A stretch of 64,000 nt of DNA. It comes from Prochlorococcus marinus str. MIT 1013. Lineage in GTDB: Bacteria; Cyanobacteriota; Cyanobacteriia; PCC-6307; Cyanobiaceae. The notes below the pieces were generated by a model. It worked only from the letters and a program-made list of their open reading frames with translations. It was not told where the DNA came from and did no database searches. The position numbers and the translations under genes are program-made. This document shows positions 2,391 to 10,106 of the stretch, in pieces; the first letter of the stretch is position 1; every line of letters begins with the position of its first letter. The DNA lies in the NCBI RefSeq assembly GCF_027359395.1, contig NZ_CP114778.1, positions 1,116,001 through 1,180,000 of the forward strand, given 5' to 3'.

Positions 2391-2834
2391 ATGACAACCA
2401 AAAATAGTACAAATCAAAAAGATATCGAAGGGCCTTCGCATTGTGGAAGCAAACCAAAAAAAATTGCATTTGGCATAGCACCACTTGGATTCATTTCCAT
2501 TGGAATTGTTCCCATGGGTATTATTAGCATTGGAATTGTTCCCATGGGTGTCGTTTCTATTGGTGCTGTAGCCATGGGAGTAATAAATGCCTCAATAGTA
2601 GGAATGGGAATATTTTCTGCCGGAATAACAACCATGGGTCTAAAGGTATGGAGTCCAGAAAATAATGCTATTCAGGAGTCAATCAATCGCTCTAATTCTT
2701 CGTCTTCAAAAAATATATATGCATATCCAACTAAAGCTCAGGCAGAGAGCGAAGCCAAAAAGATCGGATGCAATGGTGTGCATAAGATGGGTAAATTATG
2801 GATGCCTTGTGCAATCCATATCAACCCTAACTAA
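2391..2834 (+). CDS. Decapeptide-repeat hydrophobic protein fused to a DUF3721 domain
   Basis: 147 residues in two parts. Residues 33-82 are five imperfect ten-residue repeats of the type G-x-x-S-I-G-I-V-P-M (GFISIGIVPM, GIISIGIVPM, GVVSIGAVAM, GVINASIVGM, GIFSAGITTM). They form a Gly/Met/Ile-rich hydrophobic block that is probably in or on a membrane. The C-terminal 40 residues form a DUF3721 domain (IGCNGVHKMG and LWMPCAIH). No signal peptide precedes the repeat, but CGSKPKK just before it could be a cytoplasmic cap. It lies 15 bp after the DUF3721 lipoprotein gene. Regular methionines could contact soft metals, but nothing proves this. Confidence 0.65.
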   Translation: MTTKNSTNQKDIEGPSHCGSKPKKIAFGIAPLGFISIGIVPMGIISIGIVPMGVVSIGAVAMGVINASIVGMGIFSAGITTMGLKVWSPENNAIQESINRSNSSSSKNIYAYPTKAQAESEAKKIGCNGVHKMGKLWMPCAIHINPN

Positions 2835-3741: not shown

Positions 3742-4527
3742 CTAATTACTCCTTGGAAGCAAGATCAATGAAATTACACAAAGAACACTAATAAGTGGGC
3801 CTGGAGGCAAATTCATAAACATAGCGAACGAAAAACCAATGATCGATAAAACTAATCCAAATATGGAAGATCTAACCATCGCAACCCATAGAGAGCTAGC
3901 TTTCTGTAAACCCAACAAAGTTGGAGTTGAGAGTAACGCAATCACAAGGATGACCCCGACTGCTGACATTGAGCTCACAATGACAAGTGCAGTGGTAAAT
4001 CCCAGAGCTAAATTTAAAAAAGACACATTAACGCCACTTGAGGCAGCTCCTTCTGGGTCTAAACCAATATGAACAAGCTTGTCGTACCCAAAAAGCATTA
4101 GGCAAATGAATGCCGAGAACGCAATCAAAGTTCTTAATAAATCGCTCAAATTTGCAGTTAATAAATCTCCAAACAAAACAGCCTCTAAATCAATCCTGAT
4201 TCCAAGTAAAGGTATAAGCAAAACTCCAAGTCCCATCGAACCAGCAAGAATTGTATTCATTACAGCTTCATAATTTTGATTTTTCTTATTTGTCAAACTC
4301 TCTGCTGCAATAGCTCCCACTAATCCGCTTAAGACACCTCCAATAGATGGGTCAATCCCAAGCGCCATAGCCAAGGCAAGTCCTGGCAAAACACAATGTG
4401 AAATTAAATTGACTTGAAGAAGCCTTTTATGAGTTATCAATACAGTCCCCATGGCAGGGCAAAGCACTCCTGAAAAGGAAGTTATCAAAAGAGGAATTAT
4501 CCACCAATTTGTTTTGAAAAAAGACAT
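3742..4527 (-). CDS. znuB: Zinc ABC transporter, membrane permease
   Basis: 261-residue hydrophobic protein of the ABC-3 (ZnuB/MntB) permease family, with about seven to eight membrane segments. Typical features are the CPAMGTVLITHKRLL start, GLALAMALG, and the loop FGDLLTANLSDL. It would form the inner-membrane channel for zinc released by ZnuA and driven by ZnuC. It is on the same strand as znuC but is separated from it by zur on the opposite strand. Its ATG lies only 17 bp from the zur start codon, so its promoter must overlap zur, or it depends on read-through from znuC. Confidence 0.88.
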   Translation of the reverse strand: MSFFKTNWWIIPLLITSFSGVLCPAMGTVLITHKRLLQVNLISHCVLPGLALAMALGIDPSIGGVLSGLVGAIAAESLTNKKNQNYEAVMNTILAGSMGLGVLLIPLLGIRIDLEAVLFGDLLTANLSDLLRTLIAFSAFICLMLFGYDKLVHIGLDPEGAASSGVNVSFLNLALGFTTALVIVSSMSAVGVILVIALLSTPTLLGLQKASSLWVAMVRSSIFGLVLSIIGFSFAMFMNLPPGPLISVLCVISLILLPRSN

Positions 4528-4544: not shown

Positions 4545-4985
4545 ATGGTCAGTAAGAGAGATCAAGTTAAGATCTTGCTAATGAGTACAAGCAAGCCTGA
4601 AATCACTAAACGACAACAACAACTGCTCAATGAACTCAAGAACTGTACTGATGAATTGAGCGGGCAAGAGCTGCATAGACAACTTCATAATGGTGAAAAG
4701 GCAATGGGACTGACCACGGTCTATCGAAACCTGCAAGCACTAGTAAAGCAAGGTTTGATTCGTTCCAGACATCTTCCCAACGGTGAGGTTCTTTATGCGC
4801 CCGTTGAAAGAGATATTCATCATTTAACTTGCGTAAGCTGTGGAGAAACCACACGCTTGAAGGGATGTCCTGTCAAAATGATGGATCTGTCGAAAAACAC
4901 CTCCAAAAACTTTGAGCTTTTGTTTCATACTCTTGAGTACTTTGGTCTCTGCCAAACTTGTTCTCAGCAATTGAATGCTGGATAA
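4545..4985 (+). CDS. zur: Fur-family zinc uptake regulator
   Basis: 146 residues. Winged-helix DNA-binding half with a Fur-type recognition helix (MGLTTVYRNLQALVKQG, residues 54-70). Dimerisation half with two CxxC pairs (CVSC at 96-99 and CQTC at 136-139), the structural zinc site of Fur proteins, and an HH pair at 92-93. Position among znuA, znuB and znuC makes Zur rather than iron Fur the best call. An in-frame ATG at 4581 (MSTSKPEITKRQ) is an alternative start that would leave more room for divergent promoters. The gene runs head-to-head with znuB and tail-to-tail with znuC (23-bp gap). Confidence 0.87.
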   Translation: MVSKRDQVKILLMSTSKPEITKRQQQLLNELKNCTDELSGQELHRQLHNGEKAMGLTTVYRNLQALVKQGLIRSRHLPNGEVLYAPVERDIHHLTCVSCGETTRLKGCPVKMMDLSKNTSKNFELLFHTLEYFGLCQTCSQQLNAG

Positions 4986-5008: not shown

Positions 5009-5707
5009 CTATAACTTCCACCTCAAATAATTAATTGAACTAAGTTTTTCTTGAACTTCCTGAGGGCTACCAGAAGCCAAAATAATTTTATCTAAAGCAA
5101 CAACTTTGTCATAGGCATTTAAAGATGTTCCCCAGTCGTGACTACTAACAAAAACCGTGAACCCCGAATCGGCTAGCTGACGAATAATTAACAGGAAATC
5201 TTCTTTAGCCGGAGGATCAAAGGCGGAGCAAGGTTCATCAAGAAGAAAAATTTTGGCTGGATTCATTAATGTTTTTGCAAGTAATGCTCTTTGTTGCTGT
5301 CCACCAGACAAAGCATCAAGTCTCCTTTTTGCTAAATGAGATATTCCAACACGTTGAAGAGCCGCTTCTAATTCACAACAAGTCGATTTCGAATGATTGA
5401 CTCGGCCCAAAGAAACTAATCCTTCAACAGTAATTGGAAAATTCCAATTTAGCTTCCCCCTCTGAGGCATTAAAGCCACTTGAGATCGATTATTTCGCAA
5501 TGGTTTCCCATCAACAGTAATTTTCCCTTGATCCGGTTTACTACTCCCTTGCAGCAAGCTTAATAATGTGGACTTACCAGCACCATTCGGACCAACAAGA
5601 GCAGTCAAAGTACCTTGCTCAAGCTTTAGAGAAACCTTGCTTAAAGCAGGTTTAATTTTACTTGAATAAGAATATGTCAAATTTTCAGCAATCAAGCTAG
5701 GCATCAA
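5009..5707 (-). CDS. znuC: Zinc ABC transporter, ATP-binding subunit
   Basis: 232-residue ABC ATPase. Walker A GPNGAGKST (about 39-47), a Q-loop with MPQRG, signature LSGGQQQR, Walker B IFLLDEPCSAFDPP and switch histidine SSHD are all present, so it should be active. It energises zinc import with ZnuB and ZnuA. It diverges from znuA across an 86-bp region containing a Zur-like box. It is not adjacent to znuB, because zur sits between them in the opposite direction. Confidence 0.9.
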   Translation of the reverse strand: MMPSLIAENLTYSYSSKIKPALSKVSLKLEQGTLTALVGPNGAGKSTLLSLLQGSSKPDQGKITVDGKPLRNNRSQVALMPQRGKLNWNFPITVEGLVSLGRVNHSKSTCCELEAALQRVGISHLAKRRLDALSGGQQQRALLAKTLMNPAKIFLLDEPCSAFDPPAKEDFLLIIRQLADSGFTVFVSSHDWGTSLNAYDKVVALDKIILASGSPQEVQEKLSSINYLRWKL

Positions 5708-5754: not shown

Positions 5755-5769
5755 TGAAAATGATTATCG
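5755..5769. promoter_or_regulatory. Putative Zur box between znuC and znuA
   Basis: The 15-mer TGAAAATGATTATCG is an imperfect 7-1-7 inverted repeat. It resembles the Fur/Zur consensus of bacteria (TGATAATNATTATCA type) with GA-AAT and ATT-TC retained. It lies 24 bp before the znuA ATG and 47 bp before the divergent znuC ATG, so one dimer site could repress both directions when zinc is sufficient. Assignment rests on position and pattern only. Confidence 0.65.
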
Positions 5770-5793: not shown

Positions 5794-7281
5794 ATGTTGA
5801 ATTTTTCAAATCAGTCCAAAAAGGTTAAACCCATAATCAATAAAACAGTTCTCAAAAGTTCTCTTGTTGCTGGAGCATTTTTATTTTCTGGAATCAATCA
5901 GACAGCGCAAGCAAATACAAAATCAATTGTTGCTGTAGAGCCATTGGTTTGCGATGTTGTATCTGCTATTGCACCACCCTCTACGCCCGTAACCTGCTTA
6001 ATTGACAGAAAGCAAGATGTTCATGATGTCAAGATCACTCCAAGGCAAGCTCAAACACTAAAAAGTGCGAATCAAGTATTTACTCTTGGTTCAGAGATGA
6101 CCCCTGCAATTAAAAAATGGTTGGATAATCCCTTAACTGTTGTCGTTGGTGTAAGTGCAATAGAAATAGACGATCATGACGACCACGATGATCATGACGA
6201 TCATTCAGCTGCTAAGCATGATGATCATGACGACCACGATGATCATGGCGATGCCCATGGAGAGGGAGCTTTTGAATGGGCTGGTGTTTTTGATCTTTCC
6301 GCAGGAGTCTACAAATGGTCTTTCGCCAAAGTTGATGGAGACTATGCTGATCCTGCGATGAAAATGGTTATTCTTAAGTCTGGTGATATTGAAGCATCAG
6401 AAGAGCTTGCTAAAGAATTATTAGGATCCAAAAATTCAGAAGTTAAGCGCAATAATGACAAACTTATTGCGCAGGACAAAGCCTACCTTCTTACATTTAA
6501 TGAAAAGAAAGACATCACAACATTTACTGTAGAAATCAAAAAATCTGGTAAATACGCTTTCTTTACTGAGCATATGCCGTTTGAGTTTGAAGCCGATGAA
6601 CATTTCTTTAAAGATGTTTCAGGCGACGATGTTGAACCGATTACCCAAGTACCAGATGAAGGAGATCATCATCACCATGACCATGGAGGCTTAGATCCTC
6701 ATATTTGGCATGATCCACATAACATCATCAAGATGGGAAATGTAATTTCTAAAAATATCAACAAGAAGATTTCATTCTTTGATAGAGAAACTAAAAAAGT
6801 TTTAAAAGAAAGAACTCAATCTGTAAATTCCATTTTGGAAGATCTAGATCAATGGACTCAAGAACAAATAGCTACTATTCCTTCTGATCAAAGGACGATG
6901 GTTTCTAAGCACAAAGCCATGGAATATTATGGAGATGCATTTGGATTGAAGACCATGAGCCTACTATATTTTCTTGGTGATTCATCCAGCCTTAGGCCTC
7001 AAACTATTTCAACTGTATTAGCTGAGCTTAAAGAAGAAAACGTGAAAGTTTTATTCGCTGAGCAAAAGCCTCCTTCAAAGCTATTGAGAAACCTCAGTAG
7101 ACAAACTTCCACTCCTATCGCATCAAATCAAATCTATGTTGACGGTCTAATGCCAACAGGGAATACTGTTTCAGTTGCTGTACATAACACCTGCACAATT
7201 GTTAATTCACTTGGTGGAGAATGTGATGAGCAAGAGGGCAATGAACTTGAGGGGAAATGGAATTCTTTAATTAATCCTTAA
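5794..7281 (+). CDS. znuA: Zinc ABC transporter substrate-binding protein with His/Asp loop and an inserted extra domain
   Basis: 495 residues, far longer than the roughly 300 usual for ZnuA. A signal peptide is seen at about 1-40 (ending TAQA). The four canonical metal ligands can be placed: His77 (DVHDVK), His303 or His306 (DPHIWHDPH), His373 (SKHKAMEYYG) and Glu423 (FAEQKPP). Residues 127-155 are a repeated D/H loop (DDHDDHDDH type), the usual zinc-scavenging loop of ZnuA. Residues 158-285 are an additional domain (FEWAGVFDLSAGVYKWSF ... ADPAMKM ... FFTEHMPFEFEADEHFF), followed by a second His stretch (HHHHDH, 292-297). A related segment is inserted in the GTPase encoded downstream. A Zur-like box lies just upstream. 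Confidence 0.9.
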   Translation: MLNFSNQSKKVKPIINKTVLKSSLVAGAFLFSGINQTAQANTKSIVAVEPLVCDVVSAIAPPSTPVTCLIDRKQDVHDVKITPRQAQTLKSANQVFTLGSEMTPAIKKWLDNPLTVVVGVSAIEIDDHDDHDDHDDHSAAKHDDHDDHDDHGDAHGEGAFEWAGVFDLSAGVYKWSFAKVDGDYADPAMKMVILKSGDIEASEELAKELLGSKNSEVKRNNDKLIAQDKAYLLTFNEKKDITTFTVEIKKSGKYAFFTEHMPFEFEADEHFFKDVSGDDVEPITQVPDEGDHHHHDHGGLDPHIWHDPHNIIKMGNVISKNINKKISFFDRETKKVLKERTQSVNSILEDLDQWTQEQIATIPSDQRTMVSKHKAMEYYGDAFGLKTMSLLYFLGDSSSLRPQTISTVLAELKEENVKVLFAEQKPPSKLLRNLSRQTSTPIASNQIYVDGLMPTGNTVSVAVHNTCTIVNSLGGECDEQEGNELEGKWNSLINP

Positions 7282-7293
7282 CTGTTACAGATA

Positions 7294-7329
7294 CAATCCC
7301 GTCTACATTTTTAAATATAGACGGGATTG
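7294..7329 (+). promoter_or_regulatory. Strong hairpin over the translation-start region of the gene after znuA
   Basis: Perfect 12-bp arms (CAATCCCGTCTA 7294-7305 and TAGACGGGATTG 7318-7329) with a 12-nt loop. It ends six bases before the ATG at 7336 and is followed by A residues, not a T-tract, so it is not a typical intrinsic terminator. It would cover the ribosome-binding region of the next gene and could lower its translation, or protect the 3' end of znuA mRNA. There is no clear Shine-Dalgarno sequence outside it. Confidence 0.6.
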
Positions 7330-7335
7330 AAAAAA

Positions 7336-7653
7336 ATGTTTCCAACCAAAGGATATAAAGTTTACAAACAACACTGGGAAGACCAGGCAAGTTTCATGGA
7401 TAAACCACCATGGGATAAAGATAAGATATTAAAACTTACTGTCGCAACTGATTTTGATGACAATCTAAAAGAACTTCAATTTTCAAATCATTCGCTGAAA
7501 AAAGAGAATAGCACGCTTACAGTAAGACTAAAAGTTCCTTACAATTATCATGAGCTTGATGACTTTGAATTAAAATCACTTGAATTGTTGGGTATCCAAA
7601 AGAATTGGCTAACTGATATTTCTCTTGACAGCACTCATTGTTCCTATCGTTAA
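7336..7653 (+). CDS. Orphan small protein of the zinc operon
   Basis: 105 residues from the ATG at 7336. A TTG at 7327 would add three residues but lies inside the hairpin arm. Soluble and mixed charge, with no signal peptide, membrane segment or known motif. Notable residues include WEDQASFMDKPPWDKDK near the start and a C-terminal STHCSYR. It sits between znuA and the COG0523 GTPase, with only 9 bp to the latter, so it is probably co-translated with zinc genes. I do not recognise the family. A zinc-related accessory role is inferred from position only. Confidence 0.6.
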   Translation: MFPTKGYKVYKQHWEDQASFMDKPPWDKDKILKLTVATDFDDNLKELQFSNHSLKKENSTLTVRLKVPYNYHELDDFELKSLELLGIQKNWLTDISLDSTHCSYR

Positions 7654-7662
7654 TTAAAGAAA

Positions 7663-9045
7663 ATGAGCAACACGCAAAAAGTACCGGTTACAATATTGAC
7701 TGGTTTTCTAGGATCTGGCAAAACAACCCTACTCAATCGAATCCTGAGCGAAGAGCACGGTAAAAAAATAGCTGTTATTGAGAATGAATATGGTGAAGTT
7801 GGCATTGATCAAGGATTAGTCATCAATGCTGATGAAGAGGTCTTCGAGATGTCCAATGGTTGCATTTGCTGCACCGTTCGGGGTGATCTTATTCGTGTAC
7901 TTGGAAACCTCATGAAGAGGCGAGACAAATTTGACTATGTATTAGTTGAAACCACTGGCCTTGCTGATCCTGGTCCTGTAGCTCAGACATTCTTTATGGA
8001 CGATGAAATCCGTGAGGAGTTTTCACTTGATGGAATAGTCACACTTGTTGATGCAGCCCATATAGAGCAACAACTTGGTCGAAGTGATGAGAGTTCGGAG
8101 CAAGTTGCCTTTGCTGACGTCCTTGTCCTAAATAAAACCGATCTAGTTTCAGATGAATCACTCGACAACTTAGAATCACGGCTACGCGATATGAATCGTA
8201 TGGCTCGTGTCATACGCAGTAAACAAGCAGACGTCTCAATTGATACTGTGCTAAATCTAAGTGCTTTTGATCTAGATCAAGTACTTCAGCGTCGTCCAAC
8301 TTTTCTTGAACCAGAATACCCATTTGAGTGGACAGGTGTTTTTTCACTTGAAAAAGGTCGCTATGAACTTACGCTCGAAGAAGGTCCAGACCCCACAATG
8401 TCTCTCGTCCAGTTATTAGACCAAGGTAAAAACGAGACAGCTCTTAACACAGGTGCTGAATCATGCGTGAGACTGTACGCAGAACAAGAACAACTTATGA
8501 ATCCAGGGGATTTGGTTCCAGTCGGCAAGCATGTGAGCCTTCAACTTCAATCCGAAGGGACTAAGTCCTTCTTCATAGATGTTGATAAGGCAAGGGATAT
8601 AGGTCTATTCACGCAACATACAGCCGAAGAATTTAATATGAAATTAACGAAAGTAAATACTCCTTCTACAGACGAGATAGATAATGATCAGAACATCTCT
8701 ACAATTTCTCCAATAGCTGAGAGGGTTTGGGTAGCTGAACACGAACACGATGACGAAGTAGGTTCATTCGCTATCGAGCGAGAGGGTGATGTAGATCCTG
8801 AGAAACTCAATAGATGGCTAAGTCGACTTTTGTCTGAGAAAGGTGTGGATATATTTCGCACTAAAGGTTTCATTAGTTATGCGGGTGAATCCAGGCGAAT
8901 AGTTTTTCAAGGTGTACACATGCTCTTCACAGCTCAACCTGATAAAGAATGGGGCAATGAACCTCGCCGCAACCAACTCGTCTTTATCGGTAGAAATCTT
9001 GATAAAGCAGAAATGAGTAAAGAGTTTGATAAATGTCTGGTATAG
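7663..9045 (+). CDS. COG0523 (CobW/ZNG-type) GTPase with inserted domain, putative zinc metallochaperone
   Basis: 460 residues. The G domain has Walker A GFLGSGKT (14-21), the family metal motif CICC (67-70), Walker B/switch region ETTGLADP (96-103) and NKTD (157-160). The CobW C-terminal domain is at about 365-445 (SFAIEREG ... GFISYAGESRRIVFQGVH). Between them, residues 219-332, is an insertion starting PFEWTGVFSLEKGRYELTL and ending GLFTQHTAEEFNMKL, which matches the extra domain of ZnuA encoded upstream. A short acidic/His stretch (AEHEHDDEVG) follows. Family members deliver zinc or other metals to client enzymes. The zinc context favours zinc over cobalt. It overlaps the WD40 gene by 13 bp. 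Confidence 0.88.
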   Translation: MSNTQKVPVTILTGFLGSGKTTLLNRILSEEHGKKIAVIENEYGEVGIDQGLVINADEEVFEMSNGCICCTVRGDLIRVLGNLMKRRDKFDYVLVETTGLADPGPVAQTFFMDDEIREEFSLDGIVTLVDAAHIEQQLGRSDESSEQVAFADVLVLNKTDLVSDESLDNLESRLRDMNRMARVIRSKQADVSIDTVLNLSAFDLDQVLQRRPTFLEPEYPFEWTGVFSLEKGRYELTLEEGPDPTMSLVQLLDQGKNETALNTGAESCVRLYAEQEQLMNPGDLVPVGKHVSLQLQSEGTKSFFIDVDKARDIGLFTQHTAEEFNMKLTKVNTPSTDEIDNDQNISTISPIAERVWVAEHEHDDEVGSFAIEREGDVDPEKLNRWLSRLLSEKGVDIFRTKGFISYAGESRRIVFQGVHMLFTAQPDKEWGNEPRRNQLVFIGRNLDKAEMSKEFDKCLV

Positions 9046-10106
9046 AAGCATTTAGTCCAAAGGGAATGCTTCATGAAGGTTGGTCTGCTCAAGTTGATGA
9101 CTATGCGATTGTCTGCGGCTGGGCACTACAAGGTAAAACCTTTTTAGTAGGTGATGTTGCTGGAGGTCTTTCCGCATTTGAGGGGAAATCTGGGAAGCTT
9201 ATTTGGCAATCAAAAGACATACATAAAGGTGGCTTACTAGCAATGTCTATTCATCCAGATGGAAATACTTTTGCAACTGCTGGCCAGGATGGACATGTAT
9301 GTATATGGGAAAGCAAAGAAGGTAAGTCAACTAAAAATTTGGAACTAGGGAAAGGATGGGTTGAACATATCAAGTGGTCCCAAGACGGAAAATTTTTAGC
9401 AGTAGTTTTTACTAAATACGTCTATGTTTTTGATGAAAACGGTCAGGAACATTGGCGATCAGAGGAGCATCCCAGTACTGTCAGCGCGATTTCATGGTCT
9501 AATTCCAATGAATTAGCCACAGCATGCTACGGCCAAGTAACTTTTTTTGATGTAGTTAACGACAACATCAATCAAAAGTTGGAATGGCGAGGTTCACTGG
9601 TATCTATGGTGCTTAGTCCAAATGGAGACATAGTGGCATGCGGCAGTCAGGATAATTCTGTTCATTTCTGGCGTCGTTCAACTGATCAAGATTCAGAGAT
9701 GACAGGCTACCCAGGTAAACCAAGCCATCTAGCTTTTGATCAAACCGGCACAGTCCTTGCTACCGGGGGTAGTGATCGAGTGACGGTTTGGAGTTTTCAA
9801 GGCGATGGTCCTGAGGGGACTGTGCCAGGAGAGTTAATTCTTCATACGGAACCCATTTCATGCCTTGCTTTCTCACACAGCGGGATGCTTTTAGCTTCTG
9901 GTGCGCGAGATGGTTCAGTTTTTTCTTGGTTTCTCCAAAAAGATGGTCAGGGTGATCCAGTTGGTGGTGCATTTGCAGGTGACCTTGTAAGCCAAATCGC
10001 TTGGCATCCTGATGACACTGCCTTGGCTGCAATAAATGCAAATGGAGGAATTACGGTTTGGGAGTTTAAGGTTCGGACAAAAACGCCAGCTCAAGGATTC
10101 GGATAA
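9033..10106 (+). CDS. WD40-repeat beta-propeller protein, partner gene of the COG0523 GTPase
   Basis: 357 residues composed of about seven WD-type blades, with recurring endings such as CIWESK, VYVFDEN, HFWRRS, TVWSFQ, FSWFLQ and TVWEFK, each preceded by an LA/VA-x-G/C strand. There is no signal peptide, so it should be cytoplasmic. WD40 propellers act as interaction scaffolds. The start codon lies inside the end of the GTPase gene (13-bp overlap), indicating translational coupling and suggesting that the two proteins act together. I cannot assign a partner beyond that. Confidence 0.82.
   Translation: MSGIEAFSPKGMLHEGWSAQVDDYAIVCGWALQGKTFLVGDVAGGLSAFEGKSGKLIWQSKDIHKGGLLAMSIHPDGNTFATAGQDGHVCIWESKEGKSTKNLELGKGWVEHIKWSQDGKFLAVVFTKYVYVFDENGQEHWRSEEHPSTVSAISWSNSNELATACYGQVTFFDVVNDNINQKLEWRGSLVSMVLSPNGDIVACGSQDNSVHFWRRSTDQDSEMTGYPGKPSHLAFDQTGTVLATGGSDRVTVWSFQGDGPEGTVPGELILHTEPISCLAFSHSGMLLASGARDGSVFSWFLQKDGQGDPVGGAFAGDLVSQIAWHPDDTALAAINANGGITVWEFKVRTKTPAQGFG

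Follow-up and report, generated by a model that had tools for sequence, protein, structure and literature searches.

The window analysed here, a stretch of 64,000 nucleotides from Prochlorococcus marinus str. MIT 1013 (contig NZ_CP114778.1, positions 1,116,001 to 1,180,000; a genome of 2.05 Mb in one contig), carries a zinc locus in which one and the same domain is built into two different proteins, the zinc-binding protein ZnuA and a COG0523-type GTPase. The genes lie in the order znuB (−), zur (+) and znuC (−), followed by znuA, a 108-amino-acid (aa) open reading frame (ORF), the GTPase gene and a WD40 gene (all +). The znuA gene (5794..7281, +) encodes 495 aa, comprising an N-terminal signal, recognized by eye, and the two halves of a cluster A-I substrate-binding protein (SBP), which are parted by a His-rich loop and the insert. 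Membership of cluster A-I was established with PF01297, which matched in two pieces flanking the insert (163.8 bits; cut-off 29; best stretch, residues 278–470). The domain (6268..6636, +; residues 159–281) separates the first, His/Asp-rich half of the loop (6169..6264, +; residues 126–157) from the second half (6661..6690, +; residues 290–299, GDHHHHDHGG); the two halves are continuous in domain-less paralogues. The GTPase gene (7663..9045, +) encodes 460 aa, with a cobW domain, the insert (8320..8670, +; residues 220–336) and a CobW_C domain. PF02492 (207.7 bits) and PF07683 (92.6 bits) both scored over their cut-offs and the CxCC motif is present as CICC, placing the protein in the COG0523/CobW family. 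A short way beyond the insert, where the CobW_C region begins, lies an HEHDD motif (8740..8754, +; residues 360–364).

An earlier note on this DNA had pointed out common motifs within residues 159–274 of ZnuA and 220–332 of the GTPase. The motifs sit at these positions, and the domain bounds, set here by profile, widen the spans to 159–281 and 220–336, respectively. The two segments matched each other in BLASTP with an E value of 5e-8 at 27% identity over 112 aa. Their Smith-Waterman score was 82, compared with a mean of 27.5 (standard deviation 4.8) and a maximum of 60 for 2000 shuffles, of which none reached 82 (0/2000). An hhalign comparison of 22 ZnuA-type with 33 GTPase-type domains gave a probability of 97.1 (E 6.8e-11, 105 columns), whereas the reversed control gave 0.1. 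When searched against its own genome, the ZnuA segment matched itself and this GTPase alone at E ≤10. The segments are homologous and represent one shared domain, as the earlier note had held. A recent duplication of one copy within the operon was unsupported, with the ZnuA-type and GTPase-type domains placed on opposite sides of the domain tree (branch support 95/87).

The segment is a true insert in both hosts, and close relatives of both lack it. Escherichia coli YjiA aligned to residues 7–214 and 363–454 of the GTPase, with only six YjiA residues in between. In a family sample of 121 genomes (GTPase search threshold E ≤1e-60), the long GTPase occurred in 34 genomes and a short probable orthologue, whose match ended at residue 218 or 219 with 57–62% identity, in 13; the two forms occurred together in no genome listed. 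Eight of the 13 short GTPase loci were examined, and the domain was found in none (0/8), while the GTPase part was 51–60% identical and a WD40 gene was adjacent in seven of eight. The insertion point in the long form lies directly before the HxHDD motif and ahead of CobW_C, and in three short GTPases the GTPase domain passes directly into an H-x-H motif. A search of the same sample with the C-terminal core of ZnuA recovered a long frame in 26 genomes, with the domain confirmed in 24 and in G161, and G1174 assigned by frame length alone, together with eight shorter copies of 54–80% identity. None of the seven shorter paralogues examined (L215–L221; C-terminal core 53–80% identical to the window's) had the domain (0/7), and their His-rich loop is unbroken at the insertion point, which in the long ZnuA is mid-loop. 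Since YjiA, the probable GTPase orthologues and the close ZnuA paralogues all lack the segment, it is not the normal CobW linker, and the view that neither core fold needs it is borne out.

The L215 locus has a short znuA, then the 108-aa ORF and then a 92-aa GTPase remnant (L215:4561-4836), and a further GTPase remnant (134-aa frame; G1214 C1:32608-32949) lies downstream of a long znuA. In five loci with domain-less ZnuA (L215, L216, L217, L218 and L221), the zur gene stands between those for znuB and znuC. Four of those five genomes (G1174, G1250, G1205 and G1229) also encode a second ZnuA with the domain, which suggests two zinc importers of different kind in one genome.

The structure of the domain was predicted from both hosts. 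An AlphaFold2 model of the ZnuA copy, computed with 57 rows (23 ZnuA-type and 34 GTPase-type), reached a predicted local distance difference test score (pLDDT) of 89.6 and a predicted template modelling score (pTM) of 0.84, with strands at model residues 6–12, 15–22 and 32–39, a helix at 43–55, and strands at 59–62, 67–69, 74–78, 85–92 and 96–102. For the full GTPase, 26 GTPase-only rows yielded a model of low overall quality (pLDDT 53.8), with block means of 72–92 for residues 221–330; the GTPase copy has strands at 223–229, 232–238 and 245–252, a helix at 258–273, and strands at 277–279, 290–294, 301–307 and 311–317. The order of strands and helix is the same in both models, except that strand 67–69 has no counterpart in the GTPase. 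The domain, of about 120 residues, is therefore predicted to be a beta-sandwich with one helix, of a topology common to both copies, and the differing folds that would have separated the two segments did not appear in the models.

No known family accounted for the domain. In the PDB, no fold match was significant (best Foldseek E 0.072; best VIA-align Z 4.8), and the likeness extended to beta-sandwiches in general form only; ZinT, SBP and COG0523 chains were not prominent in the VIA-align list, which excludes nothing. The best fold match in BFVD, a set of viral predictions, was likewise not significant (E 0.028). No Pfam or NCBIfam model reached its curated cut-off in a scan of 15 domain members; the best were DUF4369 (E 0.032) and PRK07906 (E 3.1e-4, 19.5 bits against a cut-off of 382). 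The ZrgA Pfam model touched ZnuA at residues 123–160, its His-rich part, below cut-off. ZinT (PF09223) had no match at E ≤10 in the window's genome; as controls, it matched in five of 14 genomes, over cut-off in three. No published description of the domain was found among the papers listed by searches of an open-licence library, and an older survey may mention the longer ZnuA. The suspicion that the domain had gone undescribed is thus in keeping with these searches.

Conservation was assessed in 55 sequences of <85% identity, drawn from 355 matches with at least 95 of 120 columns filled, and is given in ZnuA numbering. Near-invariant positions were E161 (53 of 55), W162 (52), G164 (52), G171 (51), D186 (53), P187 (53), H260 (54), E264 (54) and F265 (53). 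Judged by this pattern, Glu161, Asp186, His260 and Glu264 could be metal ligands. An HxH motif occurred within 60 residues downstream of the domain in 51/55 sequences, compared with 35/765 control windows in the same hosts; the four misses were three first copies of tandems and one truncated Pantoea frame. Two GTPases (L143 and L144) carry a His/Asp tract just before the position of Asp186, in a degenerate domain that has lost part of the conserved set.

Within Cyanobacteria the domain was found in 23 of 292 genomes, 19 in the window's family and four outside it, all four in GTPases. Fifteen of the 19 had two or three matches and four had one, in each case a GTPase. The ZnuA domain of the window is 86–100% identical to many Prochlorococcus records. 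Elsewhere, counting the centre genome in the first two sets, it was present in three of 398 genomes of the phylum of the gammaproteobacterial metagenome-assembled genome (MAG) G292, in six of 385 of the class of a Rhizobiaceae-labelled MAG (one ZnuA, five GTPases), in four of 145 of the order of genome G593 (GTPases), in both genomes (2/2) of the order of two gammaproteobacterial MAGs (ZnuA), and in eight of 297 of SAR11, the order of a Pelagibacteraceae genome (ZnuA-type; one short frame of 301 aa). One doubtful 238-aa match in the phylum set (G594; E 6.6e-4) was dropped as unconvincing, ending at model position 94 before the His260/Glu264 end. The genome-contig scan with the domain covered the best 80 of 268 relatives, so other hosts may exist.

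Plasmid records extended the range of hosts to Archaea. The ZnuA query matched eight plasmid records and each of four other queries 11, and queries from ZnuA, GTPase, membrane-protein and lipoprotein hosts found overlapping sets. The hosts were haloarchaeal ZnuA, Paraburkholderia and Pantoea GTPases, an Alicyclobacillus membrane protein, and three small proteins of haloarchaea that have a His-rich tail and, judged by eye, a lipobox; these three are probably lipoproteins with stand-alone copies of the domain. The Alicyclobacillus protein (L010:4788-5696), in which the domain lies between hydrophobic segments, had no Pfam or NCBIfam match above cut-off, and its gene stands among NRAMP-, CDF-, ArsR- and CsoR/RcnR-type genes. 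The Natrinema stand-alone copy adjoins urease (nickel) genes. The earlier note had proposed looking for stand-alone copies and for zinc genes near them; stand-alone copies do exist, one lying by urease and the other two archaeal ones having no obvious metal gene nearby in the stretches shown. Phage carriage was not supported, one query with the GTPase domain giving no match in phage records and two viral-contig scans no confirmed relative. Four Prochlorococcus ZnuAs (L129, L061, L079 and L081; frames of 587–624 aa) carry two tandem copies. An 873-aa ZnuA frame in G223, containing a run of X and an exact repeat, was taken as an assembly artefact.

The earlier note had also entertained a shared contact surface between ZnuA and the GTPase. 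In the family sample, all 26 long-ZnuA genomes also had the long GTPase, and eight of the 34 long-GTPase genomes had no long ZnuA seen, six of these eight being 65–90% complete. A rule that a domain-bearing ZnuA requires a domain-bearing GTPase held in this sample (26/26) and not elsewhere, and the pairing at family level may reflect shared ancestry. Because ZnuA copies occur in genomes in which no GTPase copy was found, some of them perhaps incomplete, contact between the two proteins is unlikely as a general role. The idea is further weakened by four near-complete cyanobacterial genomes with the GTPase copy alone (G219, G221, G257 and G291) and by the location of the two copies on opposite sides of the inner membrane.

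Comparison of domains with their host cores indicated movement between scaffolds. In the Pelagibacteraceae genome, the two gammaproteobacterial MAGs and the Rhizobiaceae-labelled MAG, the domain was 73–77% identical to the window's while the ZnuA cores were 20–32% identical; in seven further genomes of the SAR11 order, the values were 61–68% and 17–34%, respectively. Within lineages the two parts drifted alike, at 71–73% for the domain and 63–66% for the core in Prochlorococcus L061, and at 65–74% and 54–83% in the seven SAR11 genomes relative to L050. The best-scoring curated models for the hosts were ZnuA (L050 and L055) and AztC (L086 and L097), none over cut-off. In the domain tree, a branch with support 100/99 set apart the 15 bacterial ZnuA copies, among which those of proteobacteria and of Prochlorococcus were intermixed, whereas grouping the domain-bearing bacterial ZnuA cores together was rejected by the approximately unbiased test (p-AU 0.0001), with long branches in play. 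As close domains are joined to distant cores, it is the domain itself that moved between zinc-binding proteins, independently of its host.

Misbinning is an unlikely source of the proteobacterial copies because their ZnuA cores are unlike cyanobacterial ones, L050, L055 and L059 lie on contigs of 58–423 kb, L050, L055 and L086 adjoin znuB- and znuC-type genes, and another seven genomes from L050's order carry the domain. The Rhizobiaceae label of L086 is unsure, since its contig is only 5 kb. Two 1.4-Mb genomes of the class of that MAG (L137 and L138) encode insert-bearing GTPases, and the L137 copy nests among Prochlorococcus GTPase copies in the domain tree, which suggests transfer of the domain or of the gene between lineages.

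We regard it as about an even prospect that the element is a mobile accessory domain that captures a divalent metal, usually zinc, and feeds it to the adjoining His stretch. It is inserted beside the flexible His/Asp-rich, metal-binding stretches of metal-handling proteins, splitting the His-rich loop near the zinc site of the exported ZnuA and, in the cytoplasmic GTPase, standing ahead of the HxHDD motif where the GTPase domain gives way to CobW_C. A divalent metal would be held by ligands from among Glu161, Asp186, His260 and Glu264 and relayed along the neighbouring His stretch to the principal site of the host, and the outcome would be better capture at very low free zinc. A common zinc module had been suggested for the two proteins; the shared domain and the metal genes around most hosts agree with a metal role, but zinc alone is too narrow for the urease, NRAMP, CDF and CsoR contexts. 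The wider proposal is of an undescribed mobile metal-relay domain, present on either side of the membrane and in Bacteria as well as Archaea, that sits in the His-rich stretches of unrelated metal proteins and has been swapped among the zinc-binding proteins of Prochlorococcus, SAR11 and others so as to retune zinc capture; we put it forward tentatively, at somewhat short of an even chance.

Several known systems bear comparison, and the comparisons follow excerpts of the cited papers. The nearest working precedent for an accessory metal-capture domain is AdcA of streptococci, a cluster A-I protein fused to a ZinT domain, with a His-rich loop at the domain interface; the two are alike in being zinc-binding proteins with an extra domain thought to gather zinc, and hand-over through the His-rich loop is the authors' speculation (PMC7858048). 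The ZinT domain is lipocalin-like and C-terminal, in contrast to the window's domain, which lies inside a loop and also occurs in a cytoplasmic GTPase; the absence of ZinT from the list of structural matches excludes nothing, and the conserved set holds one His. Prokaryotic COG0523 subfamily 5 combines a GTPase and CobW_C with an adjacent WD40 gene and znuABC, a likeness of gene context only (PMC2770081); the window's GTPase differs in its domain of about 120 aa before HxHDD, which YjiA and the short probable orthologues lack. In the AztD/AztC system, an accessory beta protein gathers zinc for a cluster A-I protein and CobW genes are often near (PMC6689063), but AztD is a separate periplasmic eight-bladed propeller, whereas the domain here is a small sandwich within its host protein. 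ZepA, compared by description (PMC10957091), and ZrgA (PMC9820375) are zinc-uptake proteins with a beta-rich fold and His-rich stretches, ZrgA differing in its ferredoxin-like fold.

Certain observations weigh against a metal-capturing role. The hosts have HxH motifs even without the insert, and the nearness of HxH therefore bears on the site of insertion, not on function. Of the three stand-alone archaeal copies, two lack an obvious metal gene in the stretches shown. The conserved set contains no Cys and one near-invariant His, against the three His of the ZinT domain, and a structural role is conceivable for the conserved Glu-Trp-Gly and Asp-Pro. In AdcA, loss of the ZinT domain or of the His loop alone is harmless to growth, and loss of both is harmful under zinc restriction (PMC7858048).

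The two copies without metal neighbours would also suit a docking domain, whose beta-sandwich would bind a surface polymer or another protein while the His-rich loop merely tolerates insertions, as exposed loops do. The weak likeness (Z ≤4.8) to beta-sandwiches that bind ligands or carbohydrates (SEC14-like GOLD, Eph ligand-binding and carbohydrate-binding modules) and the coupling of the GTPase to a WD40 propeller, typically partner-binding, agree with this. However, most hosts have metals and His-rich flanks in common and no evident common partner or compartment, two Glu, one Asp and one His are near-invariant, and we know of no one partner common to the exported ZnuA, the cytoplasmic GTPase and archaeal lipoproteins; docking is accordingly judged unlikely, if still worth reckoning with. 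A spacer or lid that itself lacks a metal site, and that positions the His-rich loop or governs when the host's site opens, would explain why the domain sits mid-loop in ZnuA and between two domains in the GTPase, and why some Prochlorococcus ZnuAs have tandem double copies, but stand-alone copies have nothing to space and a spacer would not need the same four near-invariant residues. We consider it quite improbable. To a chance or convergent likeness of two unrelated inserts we give hardly any credence: pairwise identity is low, but the profile comparison far exceeds its reversed control, queries from four host types find overlapping plasmid sets, and the separate models have the same strand order, the alignment for the ZnuA-copy model having mixed both types.

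If the metal-relay reading is true, swapping of the domain retunes zinc capture in some of the most abundant cells of the zinc-poor ocean. How oceanic picocyanobacteria thrive at ultra-low zinc is called unknown in the excerpted text of PMC9337993, and the domain is a concrete component, so far uncatalogued, of zinc importers encoded in many genomes of Prochlorococcus and in some of SAR11. One small domain serves metal proteins in two compartments and moves between scaffolds independently of the host; its candidate ligands are mutable, and the domain-less paralogues are natural controls. In Synechococcus WH8102, Zur represses synw0968–synw0973, a set that includes znuABC and, beyond znuA, two uncharacterized genes (PMC9337993), and we infer that these are counterparts of the window's zinc genes. 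A picocyanobacterial cluster annotated as ZnuA is described as almost absent from Prochlorococcus (excerpt of PMC8786288); the Prochlorococcus ZnuAs studied here therefore presumably belong to another cluster.

The znuB-like permease (3742..4527, −) and znuC-like ABC ATPase (5009..5707, −) were named by sequence and gene order, and the probable zur between them (4545..4985, +) encodes a Fur-family regulator (PF01475, 64.5 bits). A candidate Zur box, TGAAAATGATTATCG (5755..5769, +), between the divergent znuC and znuA genes was read by eye against a consensus; an inverted-repeat search found no repeat of at least 7 bases. The 108-aa ORF (7327..7653, +) has no family match above cut-off, is kept downstream of znuA, and has relatives in 45/98 loci, including some beside domain-less ZnuA copies; it is an unnamed member of the zinc operon. 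The WD40 beta-propeller protein (9033..10106, +; 357 aa; PF00400, 102.2 bits) is encoded with a 13-base overlap with the end of the GTPase gene, and its relatives adjoin both insert-bearing and insert-less GTPases. Upstream of the zinc genes, window positions 2391-2834 hold a 147-aa ORF that contains GLTT repeats and ends in a DUF3721 segment.

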